From positions 1-39,333 of IMG/VR virus record IMGVR_UViG_3300001097_000018: a stretch of 39,333 nt of DNA, one strand, 5' to 3'. The translations under genes and the position numbers were made by a program. Each line of letters opens with the position of its first letter. Position 1 is the first letter of the stretch. The notes under the pieces are model-generated. The model was not told the DNA's origin, did no database searches, and saw nothing but the letters and a program-made list of their open reading frames with translations. This document shows, piece by piece, positions 1,332 through 17,831 of the stretch. The DNA is from a virus.

Positions 1332-1332
1332 T

Positions 1333-2309: not shown

Positions 2310-2317
2310 GGTAGGGA

Positions 2318-2740: not shown

Positions 2741-2749
2741 GAGTAGGGC

Positions 2750-2923
2750 ATGAAACACGAAGATATGGAACAAGATAAGCCGGTAATGGAAAAGATCGCT
2801 AAAAAAGCGGTAAAAAGCCATGAAAAGAGTATGCACGGCATGAAAAAGGGAGGTGTAACTGGGGAGGCTATGAAAAAGATGGGTCGCAATATGGCTCGTG
2901 CAATGAACCAAAGAGGTCGATAA
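2750..2923 (+). CDS. 57-residue Met/Lys-rich small protein
   Basis: ATG 2750 lies about four bases after an AGGAGTAG stretch that serves as ribosome binding site (2739-2746), and the TAA overlaps the next ATG at 2923. The product begins MKHEDMEQDKPVMEK and contains HGMKKGGVTGEAMKKMG followed by RNMARAMNQRG. It is highly basic with nine methionines in 57 residues. The KKMGRNMARAMNQ end resembles small proteins I recall from the same position in related phages. Good spacing, coupling and codon usage support it as real despite its length. Confidence 0.7.
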   Translation: MKHEDMEQDKPVMEKIAKKAVKSHEKSMHGMKKGGVTGEAMKKMGRNMARAMNQRGR

Positions 2924-3180
2924 TGGCTAAGTTCTCGCGAAAAGTAATGGGTAAAGAAGTGGGTTCGGCTGCAGTTTATGCTGCCCCGCATACCATGTCT
3001 GGTAAGTCCGGAACGGATAGGGCACCCCGTAAATCGGGTGGGGAGTGCATGAATGAGATGAATATCTCTGTGGGCGGAATCTCTAAAAAAATCCCTGCAG
3101 ATAATGCCTCTGAAGGCATTAAAGTTCGTGGTACTGGCGTAGCCACTAAGGGTTTGATGGCTCGTGGGCCAATGGCGTAA
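2923..3180 (+). CDS. Small conserved phage protein ending in ARGPMA
   Basis: This is an 85-residue basic protein coupled to the preceding gene by a TAATG overlap. Its last third reads GIKVRGTGVATKGLMARGPMA, a tail I recognise in small proteins encoded beside adaptor genes of other podophages. No cysteine pairs of zinc type and no membrane segment are present. It may be an assembly or virion accessory protein (inference from location). Confidence 0.7.
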   Translation: MAKFSRKVMGKEVGSAAVYAAPHTMSGKSGTDRAPRKSGGECMNEMNISVGGISKKIPADNASEGIKVRGTGVATKGLMARGPMA

Positions 3181-3190
3181 GGGGTAATCT

Positions 3191-3910
3191 GTGACGTATA
3201 CCGAGTTATTTACGCGAGTAAAATCGTACCTACAGAGTGACTTTCCAACAGTTGTTTGGACGGATGTAGCAGGTACGGGCCCGATTGTGGACGATGGCAC
3301 AGCGCAGATTGACGCGCTCATTAAACAAGCCGAAGAACGTATTTATAACTCGGTGCAGATTCCACCACTACGCAAGAACGTAATGGGTGTTTTATCAACG
3401 AATAATCCGTACTTGTCTTGCCCTAGCGATTTTATGTCTTCTTTCTCGCTGGCCGTTATTGACACAAGTAACAACTACGAATATTTGCTAAACAAAGACG
3501 TAAACTTTTTACGTTCGGCGTACCCTAACCCTACTGAAACCGGCCTACCTAAGTACTACTCTTTATTTGGCCCTACGGTGGTAAGCACCACAATCACTGA
3601 TGAGCTTAGCTTTATTGTTGCCCCCACGCCCGATGCTGCATACGCTGCTGAACTACATTACTACGCATATCCTGAGTCAATTATAGATGCTGCTGATGGT
3701 AAGACATGGCTTAGCAATAACTACTCTCCTGCCCTGCTGTACGGCACGCTGGTTGAAGGGTATATTTTCTTGAAGGGTGAAGCTGATTTGATGGCCGCCT
3801 ACGAGAAGAAGTTCCAAGATGCGTTAGGCCAATTGAATCGTCTAGGTAGTGGGTTAGAAAGAGGCGATGCGTACAGAGACGGTCAGTATAAGATGAAAGT
3901 TGGGCCATGA
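3191..3910 (+). CDS. Second adaptor-like virion protein (DUF6682/SU10-adaptor type)
   Basis: A GTG start at 3191 follows AAGGGG at a suitable distance. The 239-residue protein begins with a helix (YTELFTRVKSYLQSDFP), followed by IDALIKQAEERIYNSVQIPPLRKN, then a beta-rich part (LSCPSDFMSSFSLAV...LPKYYSLFG) and a C-terminal helical part (LYGTLVEGYIFLKGEADLMAAYEKKF). This matches what I know of the second adaptor/gp11-like proteins near the tail in SU10-like and other podophages. The family name is tentative. It overlaps the next gene by four bases. Confidence 0.65.
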   Translation: MTYTELFTRVKSYLQSDFPTVVWTDVAGTGPIVDDGTAQIDALIKQAEERIYNSVQIPPLRKNVMGVLSTNNPYLSCPSDFMSSFSLAVIDTSNNYEYLLNKDVNFLRSAYPNPTETGLPKYYSLFGPTVVSTTITDELSFIVAPTPDAAYAAELHYYAYPESIIDAADGKTWLSNNYSPALLYGTLVEGYIFLKGEADLMAAYEKKFQDALGQLNRLGSGLERGDAYRDGQYKMKVGP

Positions 3911-4323
3911 TCCAGCAAGGACTAACCACAAGCTTTAAGCAGCAGATGCTGCAAGCCGGACAGAGCCTCTTAACGGATACGCTGTATATGGCGTTGTACA
4001 CCGCATTTGCAGACATTGGGCCTAACACCACAGCGTATAGCACTGCGGGTGAAGTTGTAGGTACCGGTTATGTTGCTGGCGGGGTTCCTGTTACTGGTGC
4101 GACAATCGGTGTGGGCACAGACGGAACTGTGTACGTGAACTTTAATAATGTGCCGTTCCCTAGCGCGTCGTTTATTGCCCGTGGGGCGCTTATTTATAAT
4201 ACGTCTAAGAGTAATAAGTCTGTAGCGGTGTTAGATTTTGGGGCAGATAAAATATTTACTTCTGTTACCAATACTGTCACTATGCCTGCAAACACGTCAA
4301 ACACAGCGTTACTTAGATTTTGA
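3907..4323 (+). CDS. Virion protein paralogue A (pairs with gene at 4620)
   Basis: This 138-residue protein and the one at 4620 share the order (S/T)FKQQ, YxALY, NTTxYxTxGEV, FPSxxxxARGxLIYN, NK(S/A)VAVxDFG and a final beta strand. They are clearly homologous. The composition (Gly/Thr/Val-rich, no membrane segment) suggests a compact beta structural protein, possibly decoration or minor capsid/tail. Start ATG 3907 overlaps the upstream stop (ATGA). Function is not established. Confidence 0.7.
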   Translation: MIQQGLTTSFKQQMLQAGQSLLTDTLYMALYTAFADIGPNTTAYSTAGEVVGTGYVAGGVPVTGATIGVGTDGTVYVNFNNVPFPSASFIARGALIYNTSKSNKSVAVLDFGADKIFTSVTNTVTMPANTSNTALLRF

Positions 4324-4333
4324 AAGTTAAGAC

Positions 4334-4618
4334 ATGCAAATAACGGCACAAGCACAATTAGGGCAATTACAAGTACGTACTAGCTCAAATCGGGGGCATA
4401 CGGCGGATGAACTAACGGATGCAGCGGTAGCGCGTATTTTGTATGTTGGGGAAAATGTTCACCCGGTTTTACGCGAACAAGCAGTTGCTTTTAAAGAGCA
4501 CATCAGAGAGATTATTGCTTTCTATATGAAAGAAGCTGTTCAATCTGATAGGACAACAGTTGCAAATATCCTCAAGAATGCCGGGCATCCAGAACTAGCA
4601 ACAATTATTGGAGTTTAG
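4334..4618 (+). CDS. Conserved small helical phage protein (RGHT...SDRTT family)
   Basis: The 94-residue product contains SNRGHTADELTDAAVARIL, HPVLREQAVAFKEHIREII and a YMKEAVQSDRTTVANIL core followed by GHPELA. I recognise this pattern from a widespread small phage protein of unknown role, found also in cyanophages. It is predicted to be nearly all helical. Here it is inserted between two paralogous genes (3907 and 4620). It could be a packaging or virion accessory factor, but no evidence decides this. Confidence 0.75.
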   Translation: MQITAQAQLGQLQVRTSSNRGHTADELTDAAVARILYVGENVHPVLREQAVAFKEHIREIIAFYMKEAVQSDRTTVANILKNAGHPELATIIGV

Positions 4619-4619
4619 T

Positions 4620-5054
4620 ATGGCTATTACACAAGATATTTGCAGCACTTTTAAGCAGCAATTATTTCAGGCGCAGCATAATTTTGACGCTGGTACTGGG
4701 GATACTTTCTACCTTGCGTTATACGAAGACACTGCAACTATCGCCGCAAATACTACGGTGTACACCACTTCTGGCGAAGTATCTTCATCCGGTACAAACT
4801 ACCCAACGGGTGGGGGGGCTTTAACTAGTCTTGGAGTGTCTCTAGCTACTGCAACCGCGTTTTTAGGTTTTACTAATTTAACGTTCCCTAGCGTAACGCT
4901 TACGGCGCGGGGATGTTTAATTTATAACTCCACCAACGCAAATAAAGCGGTGGCAGTATTTGATTTTGGGTCTAATAAAACCTCCACAAGTGGTGATTTT
5001 ACGGTTATATTTCCAGCAGCGACAGCGTTAGCTGCGGTTATTAGACTGGTGTAA
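4620..5054 (+). CDS. Virion protein paralogue B
   Basis: ATG 4620 is chosen over an in-frame TTG at 4608 because GGAG at 4610-4613 is well spaced from it. It gives 144 residues. The sequence repeats the layout of the gene at 3907: STFKQQLFQAQ, FYLALYEDT, ANTTVYTTSGEV, FPSVTLTARGCLIYN, NKAVAVFDFGSNK. Identity between the pair is moderate, so the duplication is old. It is probably a beta-rich structural protein; function unknown. Confidence 0.7.
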   Translation: MAITQDICSTFKQQLFQAQHNFDAGTGDTFYLALYEDTATIAANTTVYTTSGEVSSSGTNYPTGGGALTSLGVSLATATAFLGFTNLTFPSVTLTARGCLIYNSTNANKAVAVFDFGSNKTSTSGDFTVIFPAATALAAVIRLV

Positions 5055-5056
5055 TT

Positions 5057-5434
5057 ATGGCGTTTGTCACAGCGGATCGTGTACGGGAAGCGACAGCCTC
5101 TGTAGGTACGGGGGATGTTACGCTTTCTGGCGCGTTTAACGGGTGCCAAACTTTTGCAGCAGGTATAGGAGCTAACAACTCTACGTACTACACTATTGTA
5201 CTAGACAGCGCAGATGAGTGGGAAGTCGGGATTGGAACTTATGTTGGGCCGAACTTTACCCGGGATATAGTTTTGTCGAGTTCTAGTGGAACCGCGTTAG
5301 TTAATTTTTCTACTGGCATAAAAGAAATATTTTGTACTCTTCCAGCGGAACGCGCAGTTTACAACAACCCGGATGGGTCGTTAGTGTATGACCCCGCTGG
5401 GTCAGCAATTATTTATGCGATAGCGTTAGGGTAA
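5057..5434 (+). CDS. Small virion/fibre-region protein
   Basis: This 125-residue protein starts MAFVTADRVREATASVGTGD and contains NGCQTFAAGIGANNSTYYTI and WEVGIGTYVGPNFTRDIVLSS. This is a beta-rich pattern I recognise from small proteins and fibre N-termini in many phages ('TADRVxETTxTxGTG... EWEVGxGTY...F.. Ag.r.vy'). It precedes two further small proteins and the fibre gene. It may be a fibre-attachment or baseplate-like component (inference). Confidence 0.7.
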   Translation: MAFVTADRVREATASVGTGDVTLSGAFNGCQTFAAGIGANNSTYYTIVLDSADEWEVGIGTYVGPNFTRDIVLSSSSGTALVNFSTGIKEIFCTLPAERAVYNNPDGSLVYDPAGSAIIYAIALG

Positions 5435-5437
5435 GAC

Positions 5438-5752
5438 ATGGCGTCGTTTAAAAGCACTGCAACAAGAAATCTTGGTTCAGCCGCTACCACCATTCATATG
5501 GCAGTGGGGGGGACGGTGGTCATCGGCCTAAGTGCAGCAAATATCTACGCCTCAGAGTTGCCCATTGACGTTTGGCACAGAAGAAGTTCAAATAACACAA
5601 TGATTCTTCAACAATATCGTGTCGGACCGGGCCAGACCGAAGAGCTTATGCGGGGCAATAAAATTGTCCTTGAAACCGGGGATTTGCTTCAGGCTTCTAC
5701 GGCGGTTGCCAACGGTTTTGATATTCTTGTTTCCGTATTGGAGAGCGTGTAA
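5438..5752 (+). CDS. Small putative virion protein
   Basis: The 104-residue product begins ASFKSTATRNLGSAATTIH and is predicted to be mainly beta (VVIGLSAANIYAS, DVWHRRSSNN, KIVLETGDLLQASTA, ILVSVLESV). That pattern fits a small tail or head accessory protein. The TAATGG junction couples it to the next gene. I do not recognise a named family. There are no catalytic signatures. Confidence 0.65.
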   Translation: MASFKSTATRNLGSAATTIHMAVGGTVVIGLSAANIYASELPIDVWHRRSSNNTMILQQYRVGPGQTEELMRGNKIVLETGDLLQASTAVANGFDILVSVLESV

Positions 5753-5985
5753 TGGCTGGATTTCATACAGGAACCGATTTAGCAGATAAAACTTTTTATG
5801 GTTTTAAATTTATTCAAGCTACTGGGGATTTAAACGTAGACATTATTAACGATGGTTCTACGGTTAATTTACCCCAACCGGAATATATTTTAGCCCCTAA
5901 TCAGTACGTAAATTGGATTTGGTCAACCGGCACTTATCAGTTCCGATGGGGAACTAAGGGCCATTTGGAAATGGTGTTCCTATGA
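5752..5985 (+). CDS. Small protein upstream of fibre gene
   Basis: This 77-residue protein overlaps both neighbours (TAATGG at its start, ATGA at its end). It is aromatic and beta-rich (TFYGFKFIQATGDLNVDIIND; VNWIWSTGTYQFRWG). The GTYQFRWG ending resembles fibre-associated beta segments. Strict coupling to the 436-residue fibre protein suggests it belongs to the same structure or helps its assembly. No family is recognised. Confidence 0.65.
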   Translation: MAGFHTGTDLADKTFYGFKFIQATGDLNVDIINDGSTVNLPQPEYILAPNQYVNWIWSTGTYQFRWGTKGHLEMVFL

Positions 5986-7292
5986 CTACAGTCGTCGATC
6001 TTGGTAAGCTTCGGTTCTACTGGGCGGGGGATTACAATGCCTCTACCCAGTATGAAATTAACGACGTTGTGCGCTATGGCGGCAACGTATACGTCTACAT
6101 TAATATTGTGGCAGATATTGGCAACGTGCCCATAGACACAACTTATTGGGCGTTAATGATTGAGGGCATCAACTTCGTTGGTGTTTGGAATTCTTCTACT
6201 CAGTACTTTATTGGCGACGCCGTTGCTTACGGATCTACTGTGTATGTCTCTTTGTCCGACAACATCAACAAGCAGCCCGACCTGTTTCCCTCGGTTTGGT
6301 CGCAGTTTGTTGAAGGCATTCAGTACGAAGGCGTGTATGTCGGGTCTACCACATATCAAGCTAACGACGTAGTTACATATGGCCCGTCGGCGTATATTGC
6401 CAAGCAGACTACTAATAACAACTTACCTACAAATACCGTTTATTGGGACTCGTTTGTCCAAGGTATTTCTGCAGAAGGCGTTTACAACAGCGGTACGGCG
6501 TATGTCCCCAACAACATCGTTGCTTATGGTGCAAATTTATACATAGCCACTGCTAATACAACAGGTAATATTCCTACAAATACGTCCTATTGGCAGCCAT
6601 TTATTTCTGGCTTACGCCAGCGGGGGAATTGGACAACGGCTACTGCATACTTACCGTCTGATATTGTTGTCTACGGAGGTAACACTTATTCATGCGTACT
6701 CGCAAATACTTCCTCTGTTTTTGCTACCGATCTTGCAGAGGGCCGGTGGCAAATATTTAACGGTGGTATTCGCTCACGGGGCGCTTGGACAACCGCTACT
6801 GCGTACCTAAAAGATGACTTGGTTAGCGATGACTTGTCAACCTACATTGCGCTGGTTGACTATACCTCTGGGGCCTCTGTGGCCGCTGATTTGACGGCGC
6901 TCAATCTGGGCGTTCTTGCTAGAGGGGCTGTGGGGGTTCCGATACCTGATTCGACCACGATAGGCAAGCTACTGAGCAATGACGGGACAAGTACTTACTG
7001 GTTTGACGCTGCTATTAAATACACCGCAATAGGTGCCAATACAGCCGCAGCGAGTGGGTATAACTACTTAGTAGATACATCGGTCGATGCTATTACTTTA
7101 ACGCTGCCTGCCGCCCCCGTAGTTAATGACATTATTAGCGTTGCCGATGCCAAAGGCACTTTCAAAACCAACAACCTCACTATTTCTGGTAACGGAAACC
7201 AAGTAGCTAGAGACGCTACTCTGGTTATTGACCTAGCCAACGCGGCAATTTCATTAATATACACCGCCGCTAATGGTTGGGTATTGGTTTAA
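5982..7292 (+). CDS. Tail fibre with six carbohydrate-binding-like repeats
   Basis: The 436-residue protein has six tandem repeats of about 49 residues, starting near residues 16, 67, 117, 166, 215 and 267. Each follows the pattern G-x-W/Y-x3-T-x-Y-x3-D-x-V-x-YG-x3-Y, and most add P-x3-x-W-x2-F and a closing G-I/L. This is the chitin-binding/CBM5-12-like module found in phage fibres, so it probably contacts surface sugar. Residues about 340-436 form a different beta domain (NYLVDTSVDAITLTLPAAP, NNLTISGNGNQV) of the type that ends many phage fibres. It overlaps the upstream gene by four bases. Confidence 0.75.
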   Translation: MTTVVDLGKLRFYWAGDYNASTQYEINDVVRYGGNVYVYINIVADIGNVPIDTTYWALMIEGINFVGVWNSSTQYFIGDAVAYGSTVYVSLSDNINKQPDLFPSVWSQFVEGIQYEGVYVGSTTYQANDVVTYGPSAYIAKQTTNNNLPTNTVYWDSFVQGISAEGVYNSGTAYVPNNIVAYGANLYIATANTTGNIPTNTSYWQPFISGLRQRGNWTTATAYLPSDIVVYGGNTYSCVLANTSSVFATDLAEGRWQIFNGGIRSRGAWTTATAYLKDDLVSDDLSTYIALVDYTSGASVAADLTALNLGVLARGAVGVPIPDSTTIGKLLSNDGTSTYWFDAAIKYTAIGANTAAASGYNYLVDTSVDAITLTLPAAPVVNDIISVADAKGTFKTNNLTISGNGNQVARDATLVIDLANAAISLIYTAANGWVLV

Positions 7293-7307
7293 CTTTAAAG
7301 GAACATC

Positions 7308-8693
7308 ATGAGTACTTTATCTTTTTTATTCGGCAGCGGTAACACCGTTGACCCGCGCAAAGAAGGCCTGCCTTTATTTGGCATCGGGTATGCGGACTTT
7401 AACATTCAGACCAGTTTGCGGGTTATCGACTCCAACTTCAATATTGTTGGCTCTCCTTGGGGCGCTATCTTCAATACAACCGTGAGCTACGGCTCGGGTA
7501 TGCACGCAGATGCCATGTGGGGGTATGGCAGCGGCAGTAGCCCTGATATGGGGGCTTGGCGGGGTACTTTGTCTACTGAGGGTTACGCCAGTTATGCCCA
7601 GTGGATACGGGCGATGCACCAACACGACCAGTACCCTATGGGCATGTACGTTGACCTGAGCCCTACAGGTATGTTTAACGGACAAACATTGCATGGTTTT
7701 AGCAACACCAAAACTCTGCGTGGGAGGTTCTTGATCAATCAAATACTGCCGGAAGGATGCAGGCCGCGCAGGTACTTTCAGATGGAAAGCAATACCTTCC
7801 GGGAATGCCCAAATATGGGTTCTTTGCTCAACGGCATAGATTCAGTTAATTTGAGTACCTTTAGAACCCTAAACGGTTTCACCATAGGCAACGGGTCTGC
7901 TGGATATAACGAAAAAACTAAAACACTGGTCACGCTTCATTACTCCGGTGCTGCAATTCAAATCAACAGGTTTGTAAGCACTGTTGATTTAAACACCTGC
8001 GTCAGCTTGGCAAGCTTTTTCGCAGCGGCCACCGTTACCAGTGCAACGGGTACTCGTACGGGCAGTGATAATCCAGGTGATACAGTTGTTATTGTTGGGG
8101 ATAATGGCTTTGTTGCAGTGAATTATCGTAGTAGTAATACACAGTATGGTGACTTAATAAACCCGGATAATACTTACTCTAACGGTTATTTTGCATCTAT
8201 AAGCAATACCACTTCTTATGGAACAGATCATGGCGCTCCCTATTACAACAAGATGCAACTGACTTGGGATGGGAAATGGGCTGCTGCGTACACCGCCTAC
8301 TACTATTACGGTAATGGCTTGTCCTGTTTTGTTCACTCAACAGAAGACCCGCGCAGGTACTTCAGGATAAATAATACCAATTCCGGAAGCTATGGCTGTG
8401 CCTTCTTGCCACTGGGTAAGTCTGGTTTTATGTTCGCACTGGGTACAAATACAGACAGTGTTCCTGTTTCCATGAATGTTTACAATTTCTCCAATACAGA
8501 GCGTAGTGGGACTGGAAGTACCACTTACTCAAATCAGGGCAGTGATGGGAATGTGGACACTGCAAACGGTGGTGCTTTGAATGCTTCTGTGTACACCTAC
8601 AACAATTTGCATGGTGGATACGGTACAACTTGCTACCCTATATTTTTCACCGTTAACCAATGGCCCACGCTAGTTGCCAACGCCGTTAAATAA
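7308..8693 (+). CDS. Putative receptor-binding / tail fibre protein
   Basis: The 461-residue product is rich in Gly, Ser, Thr, Asn and Tyr, with many aromatic beta-strand segments and no membrane segment, coiled coil or enzyme motif that I recognise. AAAGGA lies upstream of ATG 7308. It lies between a carbohydrate-binding fibre gene and further fibre-like genes, the usual place for a receptor-binding tip. A propeller-like fold is possible given repeated 'F...G..G' and 'DG.W' type strands, but I cannot establish it. Confidence 0.6.
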   Translation: MSTLSFLFGSGNTVDPRKEGLPLFGIGYADFNIQTSLRVIDSNFNIVGSPWGAIFNTTVSYGSGMHADAMWGYGSGSSPDMGAWRGTLSTEGYASYAQWIRAMHQHDQYPMGMYVDLSPTGMFNGQTLHGFSNTKTLRGRFLINQILPEGCRPRRYFQMESNTFRECPNMGSLLNGIDSVNLSTFRTLNGFTIGNGSAGYNEKTKTLVTLHYSGAAIQINRFVSTVDLNTCVSLASFFAAATVTSATGTRTGSDNPGDTVVIVGDNGFVAVNYRSSNTQYGDLINPDNTYSNGYFASISNTTSYGTDHGAPYYNKMQLTWDGKWAAAYTAYYYYGNGLSCFVHSTEDPRRYFRINNTNSGSYGCAFLPLGKSGFMFALGTNTDSVPVSMNVYNFSNTERSGTGSTTYSNQGSDGNVDTANGGALNASVYTYNNLHGGYGTTCYPIFFTVNQWPTLVANAVK

Positions 8694-8701
8694 GGAAATA
8701 T

Positions 8702-8941
8702 ATGACTATCAAAATTGCATTCACAAACAAAGGCGACCCTTGGACTGCTGACCCAAGTAGTTTGCTAGAGCCGCACCTTTTGGGCGACGTACCGGAGGGT
8801 GTGGCTTGGTGGAGAATCAGCCTAGACCCTAAAACTCTGGTGGTTTCTGTTTTGTTTCCAGACCTATCAGATGCACAGGCAGAAGTTAAGCAAGAGGCAG
8901 TATTAAAAGCGAAGCATGATGTAGAGGCAGCATCATTGTAA
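8702..8941 (+). CDS. Small protein of the fibre module
   Basis: The 79-residue product starts MTIKIAFTNKGDPWTADP, has a central WWRISLDPKTLVVSVLFPDLSD and ends in a charged helix (AEVKQEAVLKAKHDVEA). AAGGA precedes the start. The short beta part plus C-terminal helix resembles small fibre-associated or chaperone-like proteins. No family is recognised with confidence. Confidence 0.6.
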   Translation: MTIKIAFTNKGDPWTADPSSLLEPHLLGDVPEGVAWWRISLDPKTLVVSVLFPDLSDAQAEVKQEAVLKAKHDVEAASL

Positions 8942-8960
8942 TTATGTAAAGGACGCATTC

Positions 8961-9851
8961 ATGTTTGGATACGCAGCATTCGCCCAAACCTCGTTTGCGT
9001 CTTTTCCGATGTTGGGTACGCCCGCGTCGGTTACGCTTACAGGCCAAGAATTATTTATATATGTAAATAGTTTAACGCCTACAGCTGCCGCAAATGTGCA
9101 GTTAACCCCCCAGATGTCTTTGGTTGCCTCGCAAGGTGTACTGCAGTTTAATTCTGCGTACGCACTTAACGGGCAAGCTATCACTGCGTATTTGAACAGC
9201 GTGGGTACTACTGCCGCTGCTACTACAACGCTAGATGCGCAGCTACTTCAGCTTTACCAAGGTCAAATAACAGGGGCGCCGGGTTATAGCATTACTGGTA
9301 TAGCGATGGTTGCTAGTCAAGGGGCGTTAAACACTACGGCTGCTAGTAATGTAGTAGTTGCTGGTGAGGCGTTAAACGCGACTCTTGGAAATATTAATGC
9401 TGCGGGGATTGCGAATGTCGCGCTTACTGGACAGTATGCGGCGGTGCTACAAGGAATAATTTCTGGGAAAGGTAACGCAAACGCTACCATTACCGGCGTC
9501 ACTGCCTTAATTAACATAAATAATTTGTTAGTGTGGGGATTAATTCCAACACCAGACGACCCAGTATGGCAGACTATTAATACGGCTCAAACTGATAGCT
9601 GGATAGTGATGCCAACACCGGACGACCTAGTATGGCAGACTATTAATACGGCTCAAACTGATAGCTGGATAGTGATACCAACACCGGACGACCCAGTATG
9701 GCAGACTATTAATAAGGCTCAAACTGATAGCTGGATAGTGATGCCAACACCGGACGACCCAGTATGGCAGACTATTAATAAGGCTCAAACTGATAGCTGG
9801 ATAGTGATGCCAACAAATCAAACAGCGTTGTGGAGCAATATACCAAATTAA
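8961..9851 (+). CDS. Repeat-containing fibre or surface protein
   Basis: The 296-residue product begins with MFGYAAFAQTSFASFP, then has Ala/Thr/Val-rich beta repeats (G-Q-x-L/I spaced about 35-40 residues, such as TGQELFIYVN and NGQAITAYLN) to about residue 190. The C-terminal third holds four 22-residue repeats of the form PTPDDPVWQTINTAQTDSWIV, encoded by near-identical 66-bp units, and ends in TALWSNIPN. The Trp/Pro pattern W-x2-I-x-T-A-Q-x-D-S-W continues into the last partial unit. It is probably an extended surface appendage; ligand unknown. Confidence 0.65.
   Translation: MFGYAAFAQTSFASFPMLGTPASVTLTGQELFIYVNSLTPTAAANVQLTPQMSLVASQGVLQFNSAYALNGQAITAYLNSVGTTAAATTTLDAQLLQLYQGQITGAPGYSITGIAMVASQGALNTTAASNVVVAGEALNATLGNINAAGIANVALTGQYAAVLQGIISGKGNANATITGVTALININNLLVWGLIPTPDDPVWQTINTAQTDSWIVMPTPDDLVWQTINTAQTDSWIVIPTPDDPVWQTINKAQTDSWIVMPTPDDPVWQTINKAQTDSWIVMPTNQTALWSNIPN
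9546..9809 (+). repeat. Four tandem 66-bp repeats inside fibre gene
   Basis: Units start at 9546, 9612, 9678 and 9744. Period is exactly 66 bp (22 codons), so copy-number change keeps the frame. The copies differ at only a few bases (for example ACCAGA/ACCGGA, CCCAGT/CCTAGT, ATACGG/ATAAGG and GTGATG/GTGATA), which points to recent expansion or ongoing homogenisation. Confidence 0.95.
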
Positions 9852-9863
9852 GGAGTGTAGGAT

Positions 9864-9965
9864 GTGTTTGATCCAATCACTATCGGTCTTGTAATCAAAG
9901 CGGCAGCGGTAAGTGAAGTAAGAAAAATGCGTGAACTGCGCTTAAAGATTTTATTGGGGGAATGA
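9864..9965 (+). CDS. 33-residue small protein before holin
   Basis: A GTG start at 9864 follows AGGAG (9851-9855) at eight bases, and the TGA overlaps the ATGs of the holin gene (AATGATG). The product is FDPITIGLVIKAAAVSEVRKMRELRLKILLGE after the start Met: a short hydrophobic helix then a basic helix. It may be a small lysis-related or regulatory peptide. The competing ATG at 9862 gives only ten codons. Existence is supported by the ribosome binding site and coupling, not by recognised homology. Confidence 0.5.
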   Translation: MFDPITIGLVIKAAAVSEVRKMRELRLKILLGE

Positions 9966-10480
9966 TGCTTACGCTTCTATCAACACTGGTTTCATTTCTA
10001 ATGGGCGGCCTGCCCAAAATCCTAGACTTCTTTCAAGACAAGTCAGACAAGTCCCATGAGCTTAAGTTGGCTCAGATGCAGACTGAGCGTGAGATGCAAC
10101 TTATGGCGGCAGGTTTTGCATCGCAACAAAAGATTGAAGAGATCAAGCTAGATGAGATTAAGGTTAGTTCTAAGGCAGAGACTAAACAGTCTATTATTGC
10201 GGCGCAGCAGTCTGAGATGGAGATGGTCTACAAGCATGACATGAGTCTAAATGAGGGCACCAGCCAATGGATGAAAAACCTCCGGGCAGGTGTAAGACCA
10301 ATAATTACTTTTGGTTTTTTCTTTTTACTAGTGTTTATTGATATTGGGTTGTTTTCTTATGGATGGTATAGCGGCGCTAATTTTAAAGATTTAGCAGAAA
10401 TGTTGTGGGATAGCGAAACCCAAGCCTTGTTTGCGTCAATTATAGCGTTCCATTTTGGCGGTCGGGCGTTTGGGAAATAA
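9962..10480 (+). CDS. Holin (3-TM, GTA-holin type)
   Basis: The product is 172 residues. A hydrophobic N-terminal segment (LTLLSTLVSFLMGGLPKIL, about residues 3-21) is followed by a long charged coiled-coil region (about 25-90). Two C-terminal membrane segments (PIITFGFFFLLVFIDIGLFSY, about 113-133; ALFASIIAFHFGGRAF, about 155-170) follow, with the motif LWDSETQALFASIIAFHFG. This matches my knowledge of the 3-TM holins of gene-transfer agents and many podophages. Holins permeabilise the inner membrane at a set time so the lysozyme can pass. GGGGGA (9957-9962 area) supplies the ribosome binding site. It is directly followed by lysozyme. Confidence 0.7.
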   Translation: MMLTLLSTLVSFLMGGLPKILDFFQDKSDKSHELKLAQMQTEREMQLMAAGFASQQKIEEIKLDEIKVSSKAETKQSIIAAQQSEMEMVYKHDMSLNEGTSQWMKNLRAGVRPIITFGFFFLLVFIDIGLFSYGWYSGANFKDLAEMLWDSETQALFASIIAFHFGGRAFGK

Positions 10481-10482
10481 CC

Positions 10483-10962
10483 ATGCCTATTAGCAAAAAA
10501 GCATTAAAGATGATCGCGCACCACGAGGGGGTGCGGACAAAACCGTACCGTTGTCCGGCCAAGCTTTGGACTATTGGGGTGGGGCATGTGATTGACCCAA
10601 ATCATGGAAAACTTAAGATAGAAGACAGGGTTAGTTTGCCCTGCCCGGTTGGGTGGAATCGGACGTTTACGATGGAGGAAGTCAATGCTATCCTTGCAAA
10701 AGACCTTAAGAGGTTTGAGCGCGGAGTACTTAAATATTGCCCTGCTGCTGGCACTCGCCAAAGTTGGCTCGATGCTCTGGTCAGTTTTAGCTTTAACGTA
10801 GGACTCGGTACTCTACAACGCAGCACATTACGGCAGAAGTTTAATCGTGGAGATTACGCCGGGGCGGCAGAAGAATTTTTAAAATACACCAAAGCCGGGG
10901 GCAATGTGCTTAAAGGTTTGGTAAATCGGCGTAACGACGAACGAGCGTTGTACCTTAGTTAA
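10483..10962 (+). CDS. Endolysin, GH24 lysozyme
   Basis: This 159-residue protein is a phage GH24 (T4/P21-type) muramidase. The catalytic Glu15 lies in AHHEG; the spacing Glu15-8-Cys24-5-Thr30 matches the family's E-8-D/C-5-T triad, and TIGVGH (30-35) follows. The C-terminal lobe has NVGLGTLQRSTL and GLVNRRNDERALYL, typical of the family. No signal peptide or N-terminal anchor is visible, so export depends on the holin. It cleaves peptidoglycan between MurNAc and GlcNAc. A fragment of a second, different GH24 gene lies just downstream. Confidence 0.92.
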   Translation: MPISKKALKMIAHHEGVRTKPYRCPAKLWTIGVGHVIDPNHGKLKIEDRVSLPCPVGWNRTFTMEEVNAILAKDLKRFERGVLKYCPAAGTRQSWLDALVSFSFNVGLGTLQRSTLRQKFNRGDYAGAAEEFLKYTKAGGNVLKGLVNRRNDERALYLS

Positions 10963-10971
10963 GGAACTAAC

Positions 10972-11073
10972 ATGTCAACATATTCCCCGAATCTTCGTAT
11001 TGAGCTTATAGCTAACGGCGACCAGACAGGTACGTGGGGCCTTCTGCTCTTCCACCTTGGTCAAAAAACTTAA
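10972..11073 (+). pseudogene. Truncated fibre N-terminus (first 23 codons) joined to foreign sequence
   Basis: From ATG 10972 the first 23 codons read STYSPNLRIELIANGDQ followed by TGTWG. This is the same N-terminus as the intact fibre gene at 11621, but with many silent differences. The similarity stops exactly at base 11040. From 11041 the frame runs into lysozyme-derived sequence in the wrong frame and ends at TAA 11071-11073. It is a decayed gene or recombination scar, not a functional protein. AAGGA upstream suggests the 33-codon peptide could still be translated. Confidence 0.85.
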
Positions 11074-11194
11074 CGCCCAAGATTACGCCGGGGCATGTAA
11101 AGAAATCCTGCGTTGGAACCGCGCTCAAGGGCGTGTAGTAGCGGGGCTTACAAATCGCCGCCAAAAGGAGTATAAGCAATGCTTAGGGAACTGA
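11042..11194 (+). pseudogene. Remnant of a second GH24 lysozyme (C-terminal lobe only)
   Basis: The frame 11042-11194 reads FCSSTLVKKLNAQDYAGACKE...RWNRAQGRVVAGLTNRRQKEY and ends CLGN. It aligns without gaps to the last 46 residues of the intact lysozyme (I count about 22 identities). The catalytic lobe is missing and no convincing start with a ribosome binding site is present. Its 3' end overlaps the Rz start at 11179, the usual lysozyme-Rz arrangement. It was therefore probably the original lysozyme of this cassette before replacement. Confidence 0.85.
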
Positions 11195-11619
11195 CAATTG
11201 TTGCTATCATAGCGGGGGTTGCAGGAATTACCTGTGGGTGGAGTGTGCAAGGCTGGCGTAAGGACAAAGAGATTGCCGTTATGCAGGCCACGTATAATCA
11301 ACACCGTGCTGACGCAGAAGAAAACGCCCGTATTAAGGAACAAGGTTGGCAGAGCACCGCCGAGCAGATAACGAGAGACAAAAATGCGCAGATCGCTACT
11401 ACTACTCGCCGTCTTAACAACACTATTGCAGGGCTGCGCACTCGTTCGGAGCGCCCCACAGGTGAAATGCCCACGACCCCCGGCGCTTGTTTTGGACTAT
11501 CCGGAGCGCAACTGGCAAGGGGAGATGGAGAGTTTCTTGCAGGGTACGCTGCCGACGCAGCCCGGCTTGAAGCCGCCCTCGAACAATGTGAAGCGCAATA
11601 CAACTCAATAGGACAATAG
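11179..11619 (+). CDS. Rz-like inner-membrane spanin
   Basis: The 146-residue protein has an N-terminal membrane anchor (about residues 4-22, LTIVAIIAGVAGITCGWSV) followed by a long charged alpha-helical periplasmic part (WRKDKEIAVMQATYNQHRADAEENAR onward). This is the standard i-spanin design. The second gene Rz1 is nested within it in the +1 frame, which is diagnostic. Spanins fuse inner and outer membranes as the last lysis step, so a Gram-negative host is implied. AAGGAG lies upstream of ATG 11179. A CF/CE pair near the C-terminus may affect oligomerisation. Confidence 0.85.
   Translation: MLRELTIVAIIAGVAGITCGWSVQGWRKDKEIAVMQATYNQHRADAEENARIKEQGWQSTAEQITRDKNAQIATTTRRLNNTIAGLRTRSERPTGEMPTTPGACFGLSGAQLARGDGEFLAGYAADAARLEAALEQCEAQYNSIGQ
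11384..11611 (+). CDS. Rz1-like outer-membrane lipoprotein spanin (nested in Rz)
   Basis: This 75-residue product is encoded wholly within the Rz gene in the +1 frame. It starts MRRSLLLLAVLTTLLQGC: a basic N-terminus, hydrophobic stretch and lipobox LQGC with Cys18 as the lipidation site. The mature part is proline-rich (CPRPPALVLDYP, LPTQPGLKPP), as in Rz1 proteins. It would sit in the outer membrane and pair with Rz across the periplasm. Confidence 0.85.
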   Translation: MRRSLLLLAVLTTLLQGCALVRSAPQVKCPRPPALVLDYPERNWQGEMESFLQGTLPTQPGLKPPSNNVKRNTTQ

Positions 11620-11620
11620 C

Positions 11621-12739
11621 ATGCCGTCAACATACTCCCCCGACTTACGAATTGAACTCATTGCCAACGGCGAACAGTCGGGCACATGGGGTGTAACTAC
11701 CAATAATAATCTCGGTGCGCTTATTGAAGACGCTATTTCTGGGCAAGCCTTAGTCTCAGTAATTTCGGATAACCAAGTTCTGACTGCTTTTAACGGCAAC
11801 GCGGATCAATCTCGATGTGCGGCGGTTGAGCTTAGTACAACCACCAGTGCAAACTTCGCCGTCTACGTACCGCCAGTAACTAAGCTCTACGTCGTCAAAA
11901 ATAACTCTGCGTATACGGCAACCGTATATTGCTCAACCGTCTTAGGTAACACCACTGCTGCCGGTACTGGCATCTCTATTCCCGCAGGTAAATCCGTTTT
12001 ACTTCGTGCAGATAGCGTAAATGTCGTAGGGCAGTTCGATCAGGTAGTGGGTGGTTTAGGTGTAGGCGGGGCGCTGACGGTTACTGGGAATACGACGGTT
12101 ACTGGGAATACGACGGTTACTGGGAATACAACGGCTGGGGGAACTTTATCTGTTGGGGGAACTTCTGCTTTTACCGGAGTAGCTACATTCATTACTTCAC
12201 CTGTAGTGCCAACTGCTACGGCTGGAGACAATAGCACTAAAGCTGCCAGCACTGCTTTTGTAGCTGCTGCTGTTTCTCCGGGTTCTAATGATTATTTAAA
12301 CGACCCAAATGTAGATGGGATACTTTCAAGAATCGCAGATAAGACTGTAGCAGCTAGAACAATTACATCTGGCGCAGGAATCTCTATTACAAATGGTAAC
12401 GGAGTATCAGGAAATCCAACGGTTACTAATGCTGGGGTATTGACGTTTAATGGAACGGCGGGTGCAGTAACATACACAAGTACAAACGTTTTAGCTGCTA
12501 CTGCAAGCGCATCGGTTGGTGCAATTGGGACGTATGCGTTGCTTATCACACCATCAGTAGCAACGATTTACAGCCCCGGCACTACGGTATCCGGGTCATC
12601 ACTAAGCTGGGGTGGTATTGAGTCAGGCGGCGGCCAATCAGTACTTTCAAGCCCGACACCAAGCGGAACTTGGATGGCAATGGGTTACAAAGACGCGTCG
12701 GCTAACAATACGGCAATTGTCTGGTTGCGGATTTCTTAG
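11621..12739 (+). CDS. Tail fibre protein
   Basis: The 372-residue protein begins PSTYSPDLRIELIANGEQ then SGTWG, an N-terminus I recognise from many phage fibre proteins with the pattern 'LxIELIxxGEqsGTWGxTTNxNL'. The centre has a triple VTGNTT repeat and AGGTLSVGG/TGVATF shaft segments, then PTATAGDNSTKAASTAFV. This resembles the AxxADNSTxxATTxFV motif of fibres. The C-terminus is a compact beta domain (SWGGIESGGG; GTWMAMGYKD). A decayed copy of the first 23 codons lies 580 bp upstream. Confidence 0.75.
   Translation: MPSTYSPDLRIELIANGEQSGTWGVTTNNNLGALIEDAISGQALVSVISDNQVLTAFNGNADQSRCAAVELSTTTSANFAVYVPPVTKLYVVKNNSAYTATVYCSTVLGNTTAAGTGISIPAGKSVLLRADSVNVVGQFDQVVGGLGVGGALTVTGNTTVTGNTTVTGNTTAGGTLSVGGTSAFTGVATFITSPVVPTATAGDNSTKAASTAFVAAAVSPGSNDYLNDPNVDGILSRIADKTVAARTITSGAGISITNGNGVSGNPTVTNAGVLTFNGTAGAVTYTSTNVLAATASASVGAIGTYALLITPSVATIYSPGTTVSGSSLSWGGIESGGGQSVLSSPTPSGTWMAMGYKDASANNTAIVWLRIS
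12076..12129 (+). repeat. Three tandem 18-bp repeats in fibre gene
   Basis: Three copies of an 18-bp unit (GACGGTTACTGGGAATAC) start at 12076, 12094 and 12112; the last copy differs only at its final bases. They encode a triple TVTGNT shaft repeat and are in frame, so gain or loss of units alters fibre length only. Confidence 0.9.
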
Positions 12740-12750
12740 GGGTGAACGTA

Positions 12751-12945
12751 ATGAAACTAGAGTACGCGAACCGGCCTGTTTGGGCGAACGATGAAAAAAC
12801 AGCAATGGATTTGCTTATTAAGTGGGATGGAGTTCGCGTCGAGTACCCTTTTGCGGCAACCGACAGCGCCGTAGAAGAGCACGGGCTTAGCAAAAGGCAC
12901 AAAATTCTGCGCAAGCAGGGACTTGGCGATGTATGGGCTATTTAA
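12751..12945 (+). CDS. Small tail-fibre-assembly-like protein
   Basis: ATG 12751 is preferred to the in-frame GTG 12742, because GGGGTG (12739-12744) then serves as its ribosome binding site. The 64-residue product has VEYPFAATDSAVEEHG, similar in layout to WIPFTASPEDVEQSG in the next gene. Both look like the N-terminal half of fibre-assembly or chaperone proteins. Its end overlaps the next gene by 17 bases. It may be a stand-alone N-terminal module. Confidence 0.6.
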   Translation: MKLEYANRPVWANDEKTAMDLLIKWDGVRVEYPFAATDSAVEEHGLSKRHKILRKQGLGDVWAI

Positions 12946-13360
12946 GAAACTCAGGCTGGTCAACAACACTATTTTTGAGAATCGCATGAACTATAGAAAC
13001 CCAACATATAATTCTTCTGGCTTTGTTGATTGTGAGATCGACCATCCAGTTTACGGATGGATACCTTTTACTGCAAGCCCAGAGGATGTAGAACAAAGCG
13101 GGAAGTTGCTTTTTTCTGAGATTATTGCCTCTGGTAATATAAAAAAATATCTTCCGCCACCTGCTTACATTCCCACAGAAAACGACGTTCGCCAAGAGCG
13201 AGACGTTTTACTATCTAAATCAGACTGGACGCAATTACCGGATGCCCAAGCGGCATTAAGTAGTACTCAAAAGCTAGATTGGTTAAAATACCGGCAAGCA
13301 TTGAGAGACGTTCCCCAGCAGTTAAATTTTCCCTCAAATGTTACTTGGCCTGTTATGTAG
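12929..13360 (+). CDS. Tail fibre assembly chaperone-like protein
   Basis: The 143-residue protein (from ATG 12929) includes MNYRNPTYNSSGFVDCEIDHP, WIPFTASPEDVEQ, a PPPAYIP linker and the C-terminal motif ERDVLLSKSDWTQLPDA...YRQALRDVPQQ...NVTWP. That C-terminal motif is typical of phage tail fibre assembly (DUF4376/PF02413-like) proteins. ATG 12929 has an AGGGA site seven bases upstream. ATG 12986 would match the usual family start (MNYRNP) but has a weaker site, so the true start is uncertain. It follows a fibre gene directly, as expected. Confidence 0.7.
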   Translation: MYGLFKKLRLVNNTIFENRMNYRNPTYNSSGFVDCEIDHPVYGWIPFTASPEDVEQSGKLLFSEIIASGNIKKYLPPPAYIPTENDVRQERDVLLSKSDWTQLPDAQAALSSTQKLDWLKYRQALRDVPQQLNFPSNVTWPVM

Positions 13361-13427
13361 TCAGCAACGGATTAGAAACGTCCTTAAGCGACACACTTGC
13401 CTACATTATGGAATCGTAAGGGTTAAT

Positions 13428-15662
13428 ATGCTTCAGAAAATTCAGCTACGCCCGGGCGTAAATCGCGAAGGAACTAACCTATCCAATGAGGGCGGTTGGT
13501 TCGAGGGCGACAAAATTCGGTTTCGTTCTGGCTTTCCTGAGAAGATCGGTGGATGGGCTGCGGTTTCGTATGCTAGGTTTCTGGGTGTAGCTCGCTCTTT
13601 GTGGAACTGGGTAACACTCAAAAACTACAATCTACTGGGTATAGGTACTAGCTTAAAGTTCTATATTGAGAATGGTGGTGTTTACTACGACATTACGCCT
13701 ATCCGTAGGATAAACGGTAATACGCCTTCTGCTGGCCCCCCTATAGTTACGGCTTCTACTATTGTTCTTACTGCTAGTGGTACGGTACTAACTGTGTCGG
13801 ATAGCGCTGCAGAGAGTTTGCAGGTTAATGACTTTGTTACCCTAGCAGGAGCAGGGACTATTGGTGGGGTAAATGTAAACCGCGAGTATCAAATTGATTC
13901 TGTAATTTCTAGTACGTCATATACCGTCACATTAACTATAGCTACAACCGGAAGCAACGCTGCATCCACGATAACCCTTGCATACCAGATCAGCACTGGT
14001 AGTCCTATCTATTCAATAGGTACTGGTTGGGGTAGCGATTCTTGGCCGTTGTATACGGAATTATCTCTAACAAACCCCTTCACAGCAACAGGTACAGGTA
14101 TTTCCGTTCTCACAGTTACAACGCCAAGCGCACATAATTTAACTACCGGTGACTACGTTAGCTTTGCCGGTACGGTAGGTGTTGGTGGGATTTCTTCTGC
14201 TACTGTTTGTGGCATTAATAGCGACGTACTAGAAAAAACTTTTCAGGTTACGGTTACTGGGGCTACTACGTTTACTATTTCAACGGTTATTGGCACGCTT
14301 ACGTACTTAACTTCTTCTACAGCAGCTAGCGGTGGTACAGTAACTATGGATATACCGAACCCCCTACCGACTACAGTAGATAACGTACGGGGTTGGAGTT
14401 CAGGATTCAGTACAGGTTTTGGTCTTCAGTTACGTTTGTGGAGCCAAACAAACTTTGGTGAGCAGCTTCTATTCAACCCTCGTGGCAGTGCACTTTATAA
14501 CTGGAACCCGGGTTCTGGAGCTACCCCTGCGTATGGTACTCGTGGGGTAGTTGTTTCAGGCAATGATGTACCTGCGATAATTAATCAGGTTATGGTGTCT
14601 GACGCAGCGCGGATTGTTATTTGTTTTGGGTGTAACGACTACGGTGCATACGGTACAACAGGCTTAGACCCACTGCTAATTCGCTGGTCAGCACAAGAAA
14701 GTTTTGCCGACTGGACGCCTGACGCTACTAACCAAGCAGGTAGTTACCGGTTGAGTCGCGGTTCTTACATTAATAGTGCGCTACAAACCCGCCAAGAGAT
14801 ACTAATCTGGACCGATGCGGCTGTGTACTCGATGCAGTATTTAGGCCCCCCGTTTGTTTATGGCTTTAACATATTGGTAGATAACGTATCCATCATTAGC
14901 CCTAACGCTATGGCAACGGCGTCGGGGGTTACTTACTGGATGGGGGTAGATAAATTCTATACATACTCTGGTCGTGTCGAAACGCTACCTTGCTCGGTAA
15001 GAACCTATATTTTTAACGATATTGACCCTGACCAGAACTTCCAAGTAGTTTCTGGCACGAACGAAGGCTTTAGCGAAGTATGGTGGTTCTATTGCTCTAC
15101 AAACTCCATAGTGCCAGATAAGTACGTTATTTTTAATTATCTTGACCGAGTTTGGTACTATGGTAGCTTAACGCGTACAGCATGGCTAGATAGCCCATTA
15201 CGTCAATTCCCGCAGGCTGCTACTTCCGGTAACCTTATAGTAGACCATGAGTTCGGTGTAGATGACGGCGAAACTAACCCCCCATCTCCTATTCATTCTT
15301 ACATACAGTCATCAGACTTTGACATCGGTGATGGTTATAACTACGGCTTTGTATGGCAGATGATCCCAGACATTACGTTTGATGGTTCTGATACTCAATC
15401 AGGCTTCCCAACGGTTAACTTTACGGTTCGCCCACGCCAGAATCCCGGTGCAAACTATAACCTCGGAGGTAGTCCAGTAGTTCAGTCGGCGCAGTCTTAT
15501 GCAGGGCAAAGCACTTACAACGTGCAGCAGTTTACTGAGATTGTGTATACCCGGGTTCGTGGTCGCCAGATGGCGCTTAAAGTGGAATCTAGTGCACTTG
15601 GTACGCAGTGGCAGCTAGGTACACCCCGAATAAATGTACGTCCTGACGGTAGGAAAGGATAA
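13428..15662 (+). CDS. Tail nozzle / tail tubular protein B-like
   Basis: ATG 13428 is chosen because AAGGG (13418-13422) precedes it; the open frame extends upstream to 13338 without support. The 744-residue product begins LQKIQLRPGVNREGTNLSNE then GGWFEGDKIRFRSG. I recognise this start from nozzle-like proteins in podophage tail modules (equivalents of T7 gp12/P22 gp10). The rest is beta-rich, with a middle insertion of Thr/Ser/Val strands (about residues 95-300) and later WxxQESFADWTP and YSGRVETLPC segments typical of such propeller-like nozzles. It is the largest tail component seen before the ejection proteins. Confidence 0.6.
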   Translation: MLQKIQLRPGVNREGTNLSNEGGWFEGDKIRFRSGFPEKIGGWAAVSYARFLGVARSLWNWVTLKNYNLLGIGTSLKFYIENGGVYYDITPIRRINGNTPSAGPPIVTASTIVLTASGTVLTVSDSAAESLQVNDFVTLAGAGTIGGVNVNREYQIDSVISSTSYTVTLTIATTGSNAASTITLAYQISTGSPIYSIGTGWGSDSWPLYTELSLTNPFTATGTGISVLTVTTPSAHNLTTGDYVSFAGTVGVGGISSATVCGINSDVLEKTFQVTVTGATTFTISTVIGTLTYLTSSTAASGGTVTMDIPNPLPTTVDNVRGWSSGFSTGFGLQLRLWSQTNFGEQLLFNPRGSALYNWNPGSGATPAYGTRGVVVSGNDVPAIINQVMVSDAARIVICFGCNDYGAYGTTGLDPLLIRWSAQESFADWTPDATNQAGSYRLSRGSYINSALQTRQEILIWTDAAVYSMQYLGPPFVYGFNILVDNVSIISPNAMATASGVTYWMGVDKFYTYSGRVETLPCSVRTYIFNDIDPDQNFQVVSGTNEGFSEVWWFYCSTNSIVPDKYVIFNYLDRVWYYGSLTRTAWLDSPLRQFPQAATSGNLIVDHEFGVDDGETNPPSPIHSYIQSSDFDIGDGYNYGFVWQMIPDITFDGSDTQSGFPTVNFTVRPRQNPGANYNLGGSPVVQSAQSYAGQSTYNVQQFTEIVYTRVRGRQMALKVESSALGTQWQLGTPRINVRPDGRKG

Positions 15663-15970
15663 TGCAAAATAAATTCTATACGCGGGTTAAGGCCCCGGCC
15701 CTACCATTTGCTCCTGTGCACTATGACAGGCAGTATCAAGACCAGACAAACACGGCGTTACGGTTGTACTTTACCCAAGTTGACTTCTTTATCTCCCAGT
15801 TCTCTCAACTATTTGAGGTGGCTAATCTTCCCAGTGCAGTTGTGGTAGGCGCTGGGGGTCGGGCGTTCGTAAGGGATTCTTCTGTGACAGCCTTTAGAAG
15901 CATTGTTACTGGGGGTGGGTCTACTAATATACCTGTGTACTCGGATGGTACTAACTGGCGAGTGGGGTAA
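15662..15970 (+). CDS. Small virion protein downstream of nozzle
   Basis: A TAATG overlap couples it to the nozzle gene. The 102-residue product has a helical N-terminal half (YQDQTNTALRLYFTQVDFFI) and ends in VGAGGRAFVRDSSVTAF, then IPVYSDGTNWRVG. This 'G.RAFV.Ds....f....V..GG....PVYSDGTNWRI' ending is a familiar phage tail-associated pattern. It may be the tip or plug of the nozzle (inference). Confidence 0.7.
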   Translation: MQNKFYTRVKAPALPFAPVHYDRQYQDQTNTALRLYFTQVDFFISQFSQLFEVANLPSAVVVGAGGRAFVRDSSVTAFRSIVTGGGSTNIPVYSDGTNWRVG

Positions 15971-16013
15971 ATAAAATGGTAAACTTTGACAAATATCTAA
16001 GGACGAGGTATCT

Positions 16014-17831
16014 ATGAGCCTTCATGAACTAGCACACAGCGTGCAAAAAGCTGGCCGGGGCGAAGATACTGTCCTTATTCACATGACCCCAAAAGAAGTT
16101 AACGGCCTGCAATCGCTGGCTATGGCTCATGGCGGCTCTCTTACTATCAATCCAGAAACGGGCCTGCCTGAAGCGGGGTTTTTAAAATCGTTACTACCAA
16201 CGCTGATTGGGGTGGGTTTGACCGTTGCTTCTGGCGGGGCGCTATCACCCCTTATGGCTGCTGCAATTACCGGTGCAGGTTATGGTCTTGCTACAGGTAG
16301 TTTGGAAAAGGGTTTGATGGCTGGTCTTGGCGCGTACGGGGGTGCAGGTTTAGGTGCTGGGTTATCTAGTGTGGGTGCTGGGGCAGCGGGGGCGGGGGCG
16401 GGGGCGGGGGCAGCTAATGCGATTACAGGTACTGCGCCAAATCTTGGTGGGAGTTTAATGGCAGGCGCTACAGGCACTACGTCAGTAGCGCCCTCGGTGC
16501 TAGGTTCTGGTTTTTACAATACTGCGCCGAGTCTCGTTCCAACGCAACTAACCGCTGCTAAACAAATAATACCCATGAGTTCTAACTTTGGAAATATGGG
16601 CGCTGGATTAAAAACGCTTAACAGCACTGCAGGCTTTTCAAATCTTTATGACGCATTACCTAAGTACACGATACCTGCACTAGCCGGAACTGCTTTGGCA
16701 GGTATGCAAAAAGACTACAAACCACCAAAACAAAATTTAGGAATGATCCGTCCGTATGAGTTTAACCGCACTCAAAACCAAGAAGCCTACGACCAAGGTA
16801 ATCCAATTTATGCTGAAGATCCCGGCAGTTCACGGGAGCGTAACTACTTTACTGACCAGTACACAGCACTTACCCCATATGAAGCACCCGGGCCTGAGTA
16901 CAAAAACGCTGCGGGTGGTGGGTTAATGGGGTTGAATGCCTTTAACGTTGGTGGCCCTGTAGAAGAGATGTCAGCTATGAACGCTCTCAGTGGTAACCCG
17001 ATGTACCCCCAATCGCAACTGCAAACGCCTGCGTACAGCAACCCAATGATACAAAACCCTGTTGCGTCTAACGTAATTAATGGTGGTATTGATACACCTG
17101 TAGACGCGTTTAGTGGTGAGCAACGTATGGCCGAGGGGGGTAAAACTACGGGGGAGTATAAGTACGATTATAACCCACAGACCCAGCAGTTCACGCAGTT
17201 GAGTGCGCCTATATCAGTAGTTAAAGATAAACGGCGTAGTCTTTCTGGGCCTTTCTCCGCAGCGTTCCAGTTGGCACAGCACTCAGAAGCATCAAAACAA
17301 ACACAGCAAGCACAGCAAGCACAGCAAGCACAGCAAGCACAGCAACCTAAAGTAACCGGCGGTCTTGCTCAAGCTCCACAGATGCAGCAGCAGCAACAAT
17401 CGCCATACCAAATGCAACAAACAGCGCCGCTACCCGAATATCAAACGCCTGAACAGCAGCTAGGGATGGGTAACTTTTATAAGGATCTAAACGCACAAAT
17501 GGCAGGTATGCAGTTTGCTGACGGTGGCATGGCTGGTGGGGGATACAATCTTGGTGGTTACTCGGATGGTGGACGTTTACTAAGGGGGCCCGGCGATGGC
17601 GTTTCTGATTCTATTCCTGCTTCTATCGGTGGCCGGCAGCCTGCTCGTTTGGCTGATGGTGAGTTTGTGGTGCCAGCGCGTATCGTATCTGAAATCGGTA
17701 ATGGCTCTACTGAAGCGGGGGCGCGAAAGCTTTACGCTATGATGGATCGTGTGCAGAAAGCCCGTAAGAAGACCGTCGGTAAAAACCAAGTAGCCGCTAA
17801 TACACGTACTGAAAAACTGTTACCTGCATGA
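16014..17831 (+). CDS. Virion-associated protein with Gly/Ala membrane-active segment
   Basis: The 605-residue protein starts SLHELAHSVQKAGRGEDTVL and contains MTPKEVNGLQSLAMAHGG, followed by a long Gly/Ala/Leu-rich region (about residues 58-160, GFLKSLLPTLIGVGL, GAGAGAGAA) with membrane-insertion potential. A Gln-rich middle (QAQQ repeats, about 425-480) and a C-terminal ADGEFVVPARIVSEIGNGSTEAG...LYAMMDRVQKARKK motif follow. I recognise both ends from large virion proteins preceding internal-virion genes in aquatic podophages. It probably travels in the virion and acts in DNA ejection (inference). Confidence 0.65.
   Translation: MSLHELAHSVQKAGRGEDTVLIHMTPKEVNGLQSLAMAHGGSLTINPETGLPEAGFLKSLLPTLIGVGLTVASGGALSPLMAAAITGAGYGLATGSLEKGLMAGLGAYGGAGLGAGLSSVGAGAAGAGAGAGAANAITGTAPNLGGSLMAGATGTTSVAPSVLGSGFYNTAPSLVPTQLTAAKQIIPMSSNFGNMGAGLKTLNSTAGFSNLYDALPKYTIPALAGTALAGMQKDYKPPKQNLGMIRPYEFNRTQNQEAYDQGNPIYAEDPGSSRERNYFTDQYTALTPYEAPGPEYKNAAGGGLMGLNAFNVGGPVEEMSAMNALSGNPMYPQSQLQTPAYSNPMIQNPVASNVINGGIDTPVDAFSGEQRMAEGGKTTGEYKYDYNPQTQQFTQLSAPISVVKDKRRSLSGPFSAAFQLAQHSEASKQTQQAQQAQQAQQAQQPKVTGGLAQAPQMQQQQQSPYQMQQTAPLPEYQTPEQQLGMGNFYKDLNAQMAGMQFADGGMAGGGYNLGGYSDGGRLLRGPGDGVSDSIPASIGGRQPARLADGEFVVPARIVSEIGNGSTEAGARKLYAMMDRVQKARKKTVGKNQVAANTRTEKLLPA
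16387..16410 (+). repeat. Four 6-bp CGGGGG repeats, G-quadruplex motif
   Basis: Four uninterrupted CGGGGG units give four runs of five G separated by single C on the coding strand. This fits the standard intramolecular G-quadruplex pattern with one-base loops. It encodes an Ala-Gly run in the virion-associated protein. Confidence 0.9.
17303..17346 (+). repeat. 9-bp tandem repeats encoding QAQ
   Basis: Four perfect ACAGCAAGC units (17303-17338) and a partial fifth encode a QAQQAQQAQ tract in a Gln-rich, probably disordered linker. It is a simple-sequence region prone to in-frame length change. Confidence 0.9.

Follow-up and report, generated by a model that had tools for sequence, protein, structure and literature searches.

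The fusion found downstream of the lysozyme gene of this phage is confirmed to be a real and probably recent mosaic joint, at which the start of a fibre gene from one type of lysis cassette (type A) is joined to the end of a lysozyme gene from another (type B). The window, by which we mean the whole stretch of DNA that was analysed, comprises 39,333 bases out of a 40,419-base IMG/VR virus record, and the features of the lysis region described below lie on its plus strand. The event is ordinary phage mosaicism and a new instance of it, unusually well resolved: both fragments are in place, both parental arrangements are known and the joining bases can be read. As a whole explanation, we consider it likely that an A block was inserted into a B-type resident, replacing most of its predicted SAR endolysin gene.

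Within the window, an intact A-type GH24 lysozyme gene (lysA, 10483-10962; PF00959, Phage_lysozyme, E=5.8e-37) is followed by a truncated fibre ORF of 33 codons (10972-11073), in which the fibre start occupies 10972-11040 and, by direct reading from the ATG at 10972, gives MSTYSPNLRIELIANGDQTGTWG. Past the joint this ORF continues through 10 codons of unrelated sequence before a TAA (11071-11073) ends it, and a family search with the 33-codon scar peptide gave no match. In a different frame, from 11042, the DNA encodes FCSSTLVKKLNAQDYAGACKEILRWNRAQGRVVAGLTNRRQKEYKQCLGN, which matches positions 83-125 of the Pfam Phage_lysozyme model (E=2.6e-14), only the C-terminal third of that model. This remnant of about 50 codons (11041-11194) derives from a B-type GH24 lysozyme gene (lysB) that is SAR-type in intact relatives; its frame is in phase with GCC at 11039-11041, and its stop at 11194 lies past the start of Rz at 11179, so that the two overlap. 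Sequence reading and Pfam thus agree with a preliminary description of this region, which had proposed that the first 23 codons of a fibre gene were fused to the C-terminal part of a GH24 lysozyme, with an intact lysozyme gene before the scar and an intact fibre gene after Rz/Rz1 (11621-12739). The same description had placed the join at one base; the joint is indeed sharp, but it may fall anywhere within the six bases TGGGGC at 11035-11040.

Both parental arrangements exist among relatives taken from IMG/VR, while DNA comparison with annotated phages gave no match. In type A, the fibre start comes immediately after a holin-like gene and a lysozyme gene (L006/L082, L096/L097, L111, L112, L119, L144 and others); in type B, an intact gene for a lysozyme of 151-153 amino acids is directly followed by Rz, the start of which it overlaps (L163, L164, L165, L170, L171 and L172). 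Among type A, the closest relatives are L006/L082 (lysozyme 92% and fibre start 91% identical in amino acids), the window lysozyme being 89-92% identical to the closest A relatives overall; L096/L097 are 78% identical in nucleotides over 10406-11040, and the similarity ends exactly at 11040. On the type B side, L163/L164 are 98% identical in nucleotides across 11028-11604, and L165 is about 81% identical (80.7%) across 11036-12166, fibre included; the order lysB-Rz-fibre is collinear in L165 and L172, and the intact fibre gene of the window is collinear with L165 in this order. The remnant shares 96% of its amino acids with the intact lysB of L163/L164 and 90% with that of L165, and Rz shares 95-97% with L163/L164. 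The two sides of the joint therefore match different lineages (L096/L097 up to 11040, L163/L164 from 11028), as the preliminary description had expected when it called for a lysozyme-fibre-start lineage and a lysozyme-Rz lineage. Intact versions of both interrupted genes are present in relatives, the A fibre gene after lysA and lysB before Rz, and no gene running intact across the joint was seen among them. In a tally of all fetched loci, the order lysA-fibre-lysB-Rz-fibre occurred in this phage and in one duplicate record (3300000405_000125) only.

At 11029-11040 the window reads GGTACGTGGGGC, which aligns with GGTACTGGGGC in the type B phage L163 and with GGTACATGGGGC in the type A phage L111, and within it the TGGGGC of 11035-11040 is identical in type A and type B. 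When joints were placed at random between five fibre starts of type A and the lysozyme gene of L163, the sharing of at least 6 nt at the joint had a probability of P=0.0015; out of 805,506 placements, the extended 12/11 match with one indel occurred at this site alone, where two adjacent registers gave it. A short sequence common to both parents, above chance, is the pattern expected from short-homology joining. The right crossover would have occurred at this short chance match, where fibre codons reading GTWG face lysozyme codons reading GTGA. Both illegitimate and homeologous recombination have been treated as sources of phage mosaicism, and joining by RecET at 5-13 bp has been cited in that context (PMC2327257). 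Here, an annealing system of the phage or of its host may have carried out the joining; the window encodes a PD-(D/E)XK exonuclease (34229-34897), and the proteins scanned included none that could be recognised as an annealing protein.

The A block is larger than the lysozyme gene and fibre start. It has a length of about 1.14 kb, also carries the upstream holin-like gene (9962-10480), which is 70-84% identical in amino acids to A-type relatives and for which no counterpart was found in B-type records, and probably carries the end of an A-type TM gene as well. The holin-like gene of A-type phages follows a small TM gene with the ending ...RKMRELRAKIL..GE, of which this phage has only the last ~20 codons. 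They stand behind a start, VFDPITIGLVI, similar to that of the DPxTIGL gene with which the lysis cassette of relatives such as L020 and L336 opens. The resulting short ORF (9864-9965; VFDPITIGLVIKAAAVSEVRKMRELRLKILLGE) is a probable in-frame fusion of the two, its C-terminal 20 amino acids matching A-type relatives at 66-80% and its first codons matching L336 of the DPxTIGL family at 22 of 33 nt; the protein search used the longer DPxTIGL gene, and a degenerate-DNA search with the short ORF returned the duplicate record as its sole match. An A TM gene end behind a DPxTIGL-like start suggests that the left edge of the block lies probably at about 9890-9905 and forms a second gene fusion, for which the left partner is drawn from about ten codons.

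The model that we favour proposes that the ancestor of this phage carried the B arrangement, with a SAR-type GH24 endolysin, Rz/Rz1 and fibre, and that its recombination partner was an A-type phage with a TM gene, a 3TM-holin-like gene, a canonical GH24 endolysin and fibre. The A block (~9890-9905 to 11035-11040), made up of the tail of the A-type TM gene, the holin-like gene and entire lysozyme gene of A and the first 23 A fibre codons, would then have displaced the resident SAR endolysin gene over its first two thirds. The earlier proposal that a foreign lysozyme and the start of its fibre had replaced most of the resident lysozyme is thus supported as to the exchange and amended as to its extent, since the holin-like gene is also part of the block; that A came in from outside and B was resident is probable and favoured, but not proven. 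In L165, lysB is directly preceded by a relative of the window ORF 8961-9851 (E=9e-12), and downstream of the fibre gene lies one of the window ORF 12742-12945 (E=5e-16); such L165-like genes flanking the A block on both sides, together with the broken A TM gene, favour an L165-like resident and an incoming A block. Against the model, the nearest A donor by DNA is only 78% identical.

Under the opposite direction of transfer, an A-type resident would have received a B segment consisting of the lysozyme end, Rz/Rz1, fibre and perhaps the following genes, joined after fibre codon 23. We regard this as unlikely, if still deserving of some weight. In its favour, A097, which has the A arrangement, is among the closest whole-backbone relatives, and the 98% lysB-Rz match to L163/L164, which are 99.9% identical to each other and have almost nothing else in common with this phage, indicates that the lysB-Rz cassette itself moves between phages. 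Against it, the A TM gene is cut short at the left edge and L165-like genes stand on both sides of the block, neither of which would be needed if an A resident had received one insertion on the right. The backbone genes match the A-type A097/G001 at 66-84% of amino acids in many genes and are also close to X020/G008, whose cassette is of a third type that includes a GH108 lysozyme, and in the right half they match the B-type B171 less closely; given this closeness to both an A-type phage and the third type, the backbone alone cannot make B the resident.

A false joining at 11035-11040 of two phages from the same sample, by assembly or amplification, appears very improbable. The joint is present identically in two IMG/VR records, although the second, base-identical to the window over 1-16465 and starting at the same first base, may come from the same sample and so perhaps is not independent. 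The exact overlap of 6 nt is far below the usual k-mer lengths of assemblers, so that an overlap-driven misjoin is not expected, and the block has an apparent second edge ~1.1 kb to the left; six identical bases and a second edge together make misassembly unlikely. As each gene is present twice in part, the lysozyme remnant and fibre start could also be imagined to be copies of genes resident in this genome, which we hold to be next to impossible. The fibre fragment is 76% identical in nucleotides to the start of the intact fibre copy (11626-11691, 66 nt), with 11 of 14 differing codons synonymous when counted from codon 3, the remnant is only ~50% identical in amino acids to the intact lysozyme, and each fragment has closer relatives in other phages. 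Internal duplication is refuted by these identities, and the earlier view that neither fragment is a recent copy from within this genome stands.

An insertion of the A block into a B-type resident would bear on the mode of lysis. An N-terminal hydrophobic segment was found in 44/44 lysB homologues with a readable start and in 0/62 lysA homologues, from which the ancestral lysB is predicted to have been a SAR (exported) endolysin and lysA to be a canonical endolysin that needs a holin. In the lysB homologues this weakly hydrophobic segment stands ahead of the catalytic domain, as in SAR endolysins; lysA has a triad E15-x8-C24-x5-T30, in keeping with the pattern E-x8-(D/C)-x5-T of canonical GH24 enzymes, with a Phage_lysozyme domain and no signal anchor. 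The gene at 9962-10480 is predicted, by position and topology only, to be holin-like; its likeness to GTA_holin_3TM (PF11351) comes by way of a relative and of position, as the window protein had no Pfam match and its close relative L006 scored E=0.025 and 15.5 bits against a cut-off of 24.8.

The spanin genes are of type B. Rz (i-spanin; 11179-11619; PHROG Rz-like spanin phrog_312, E=1.1e-8) begins with an N-terminal TM segment and contains, out of frame, the lipoprotein gene Rz1 (o-spanin; 11384-11611; phrog_3198, E=5.8e-4) with the lipobox LLQGC and a consistent hydropathy, the layout of a two-component embedded spanin. With two spanin models, Rz was detected in this phage as well as in the B-type records, but six A-type records yielded none; the recombinant thus seems to pair an A lysis block with B spanins. 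A doubtful single match in A097, in a scan for overlapping Rz/Rz1-like pairs, was given no weight, and a scan of bacterial and archaeal genomes returned no relative of Rz. What is likely to be the ribosome-binding site of Rz, AAAAGGAG (11163-11170; read directly, with its function inferred), is contained in the remnant, as is the overlap with the Rz start, and this would account for the retention of the stranded SAR endolysin gene end. The outcome would be a phage with an A holin-like protein, an A endolysin and B spanins, in which the exchange has probably switched the lysis mode while Rz/Rz1 were kept. We tentatively suggest, as a reading that might well prove wrong, that this is a young natural recombinant caught in the midst of a switch from a SAR endolysin to a holin and canonical endolysin, the old tail being kept only as the translation start region of Rz and the spanins being newly paired with an A block in whose own lineage no spanin is recognisable.

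Compared with L163, the remnant has 4 differences in 138 nt and Rz has 6 in 423 nt, and the remnant frame is undamaged; these few differences and the intact frame point to a probably young joint. Similarity to L163/L164, at 98% over 11028-11604, stops just short of the Rz/Rz1 stop codons, which marks a second mosaic border. In L005 and L020, the same conserved fibre start is preceded by the third type of lysis cassette, which has a GH108 lysozyme and occurs with or without Rz/Rz1, so that the site upstream of this fibre start looks like an exchange hot spot.

Most surviving phage mosaic joints fall between genes, and they are mostly observed once selection has tidied them to gene borders. The joint described here resembles those of lambdoid and other tailed phages in that non-homologous modules meet sharply with few shared bases, and in that lysis genes are a common unit of exchange (PMC2327257); it differs in lying inside two genes, with both fragments left and both parental arrangements identified. 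The incoming holin-like gene and a GH24 lysozyme without signal anchor recall the canonical holin-endolysin pathway of lambda, the N-terminal hydrophobic segment of the discarded gene resembles SAR endolysins of the phi21 pinholin-SAR pathway, and Rz/Rz1 serve both (PMC6139136); here, however, one predicted type overwrote the other in one cassette, with the tail of the SAR gene remaining. Related coliphages likewise have either SAR or canonical endolysin clusters with Rz/Rz1 conserved, but the cassettes compared in that work were finished ones, whereas the present one is a scarred intermediate (PMC8136144). The scar offers a natural test of swapping two lysis strategies in one cassette, and of why the tail of the old gene stays.

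Elsewhere in the window, the end of ORF 8961-9851 carries a 66-nt spaced unit that is present four times in tandem (9534-9863) and encodes repeats like PDDPVWQTINTAQTDSWIVM, and a weaker form of this motif occurs in L165 upstream of lysB. The tail-fibre-like ORF 5982-7292 contains a CBM_5_12 carbohydrate-binding module (E=7.3e-12) and, at 6748-6940, a stretch of 193 nt that is 96% identical to L222, a phage with another SAR-type lysozyme cassette in which a 68-aa holin-family gene stands in front. ORF 21214-27240 encodes 2008 amino acids with an LPD38 domain (E=2e-31) near the C-terminus.
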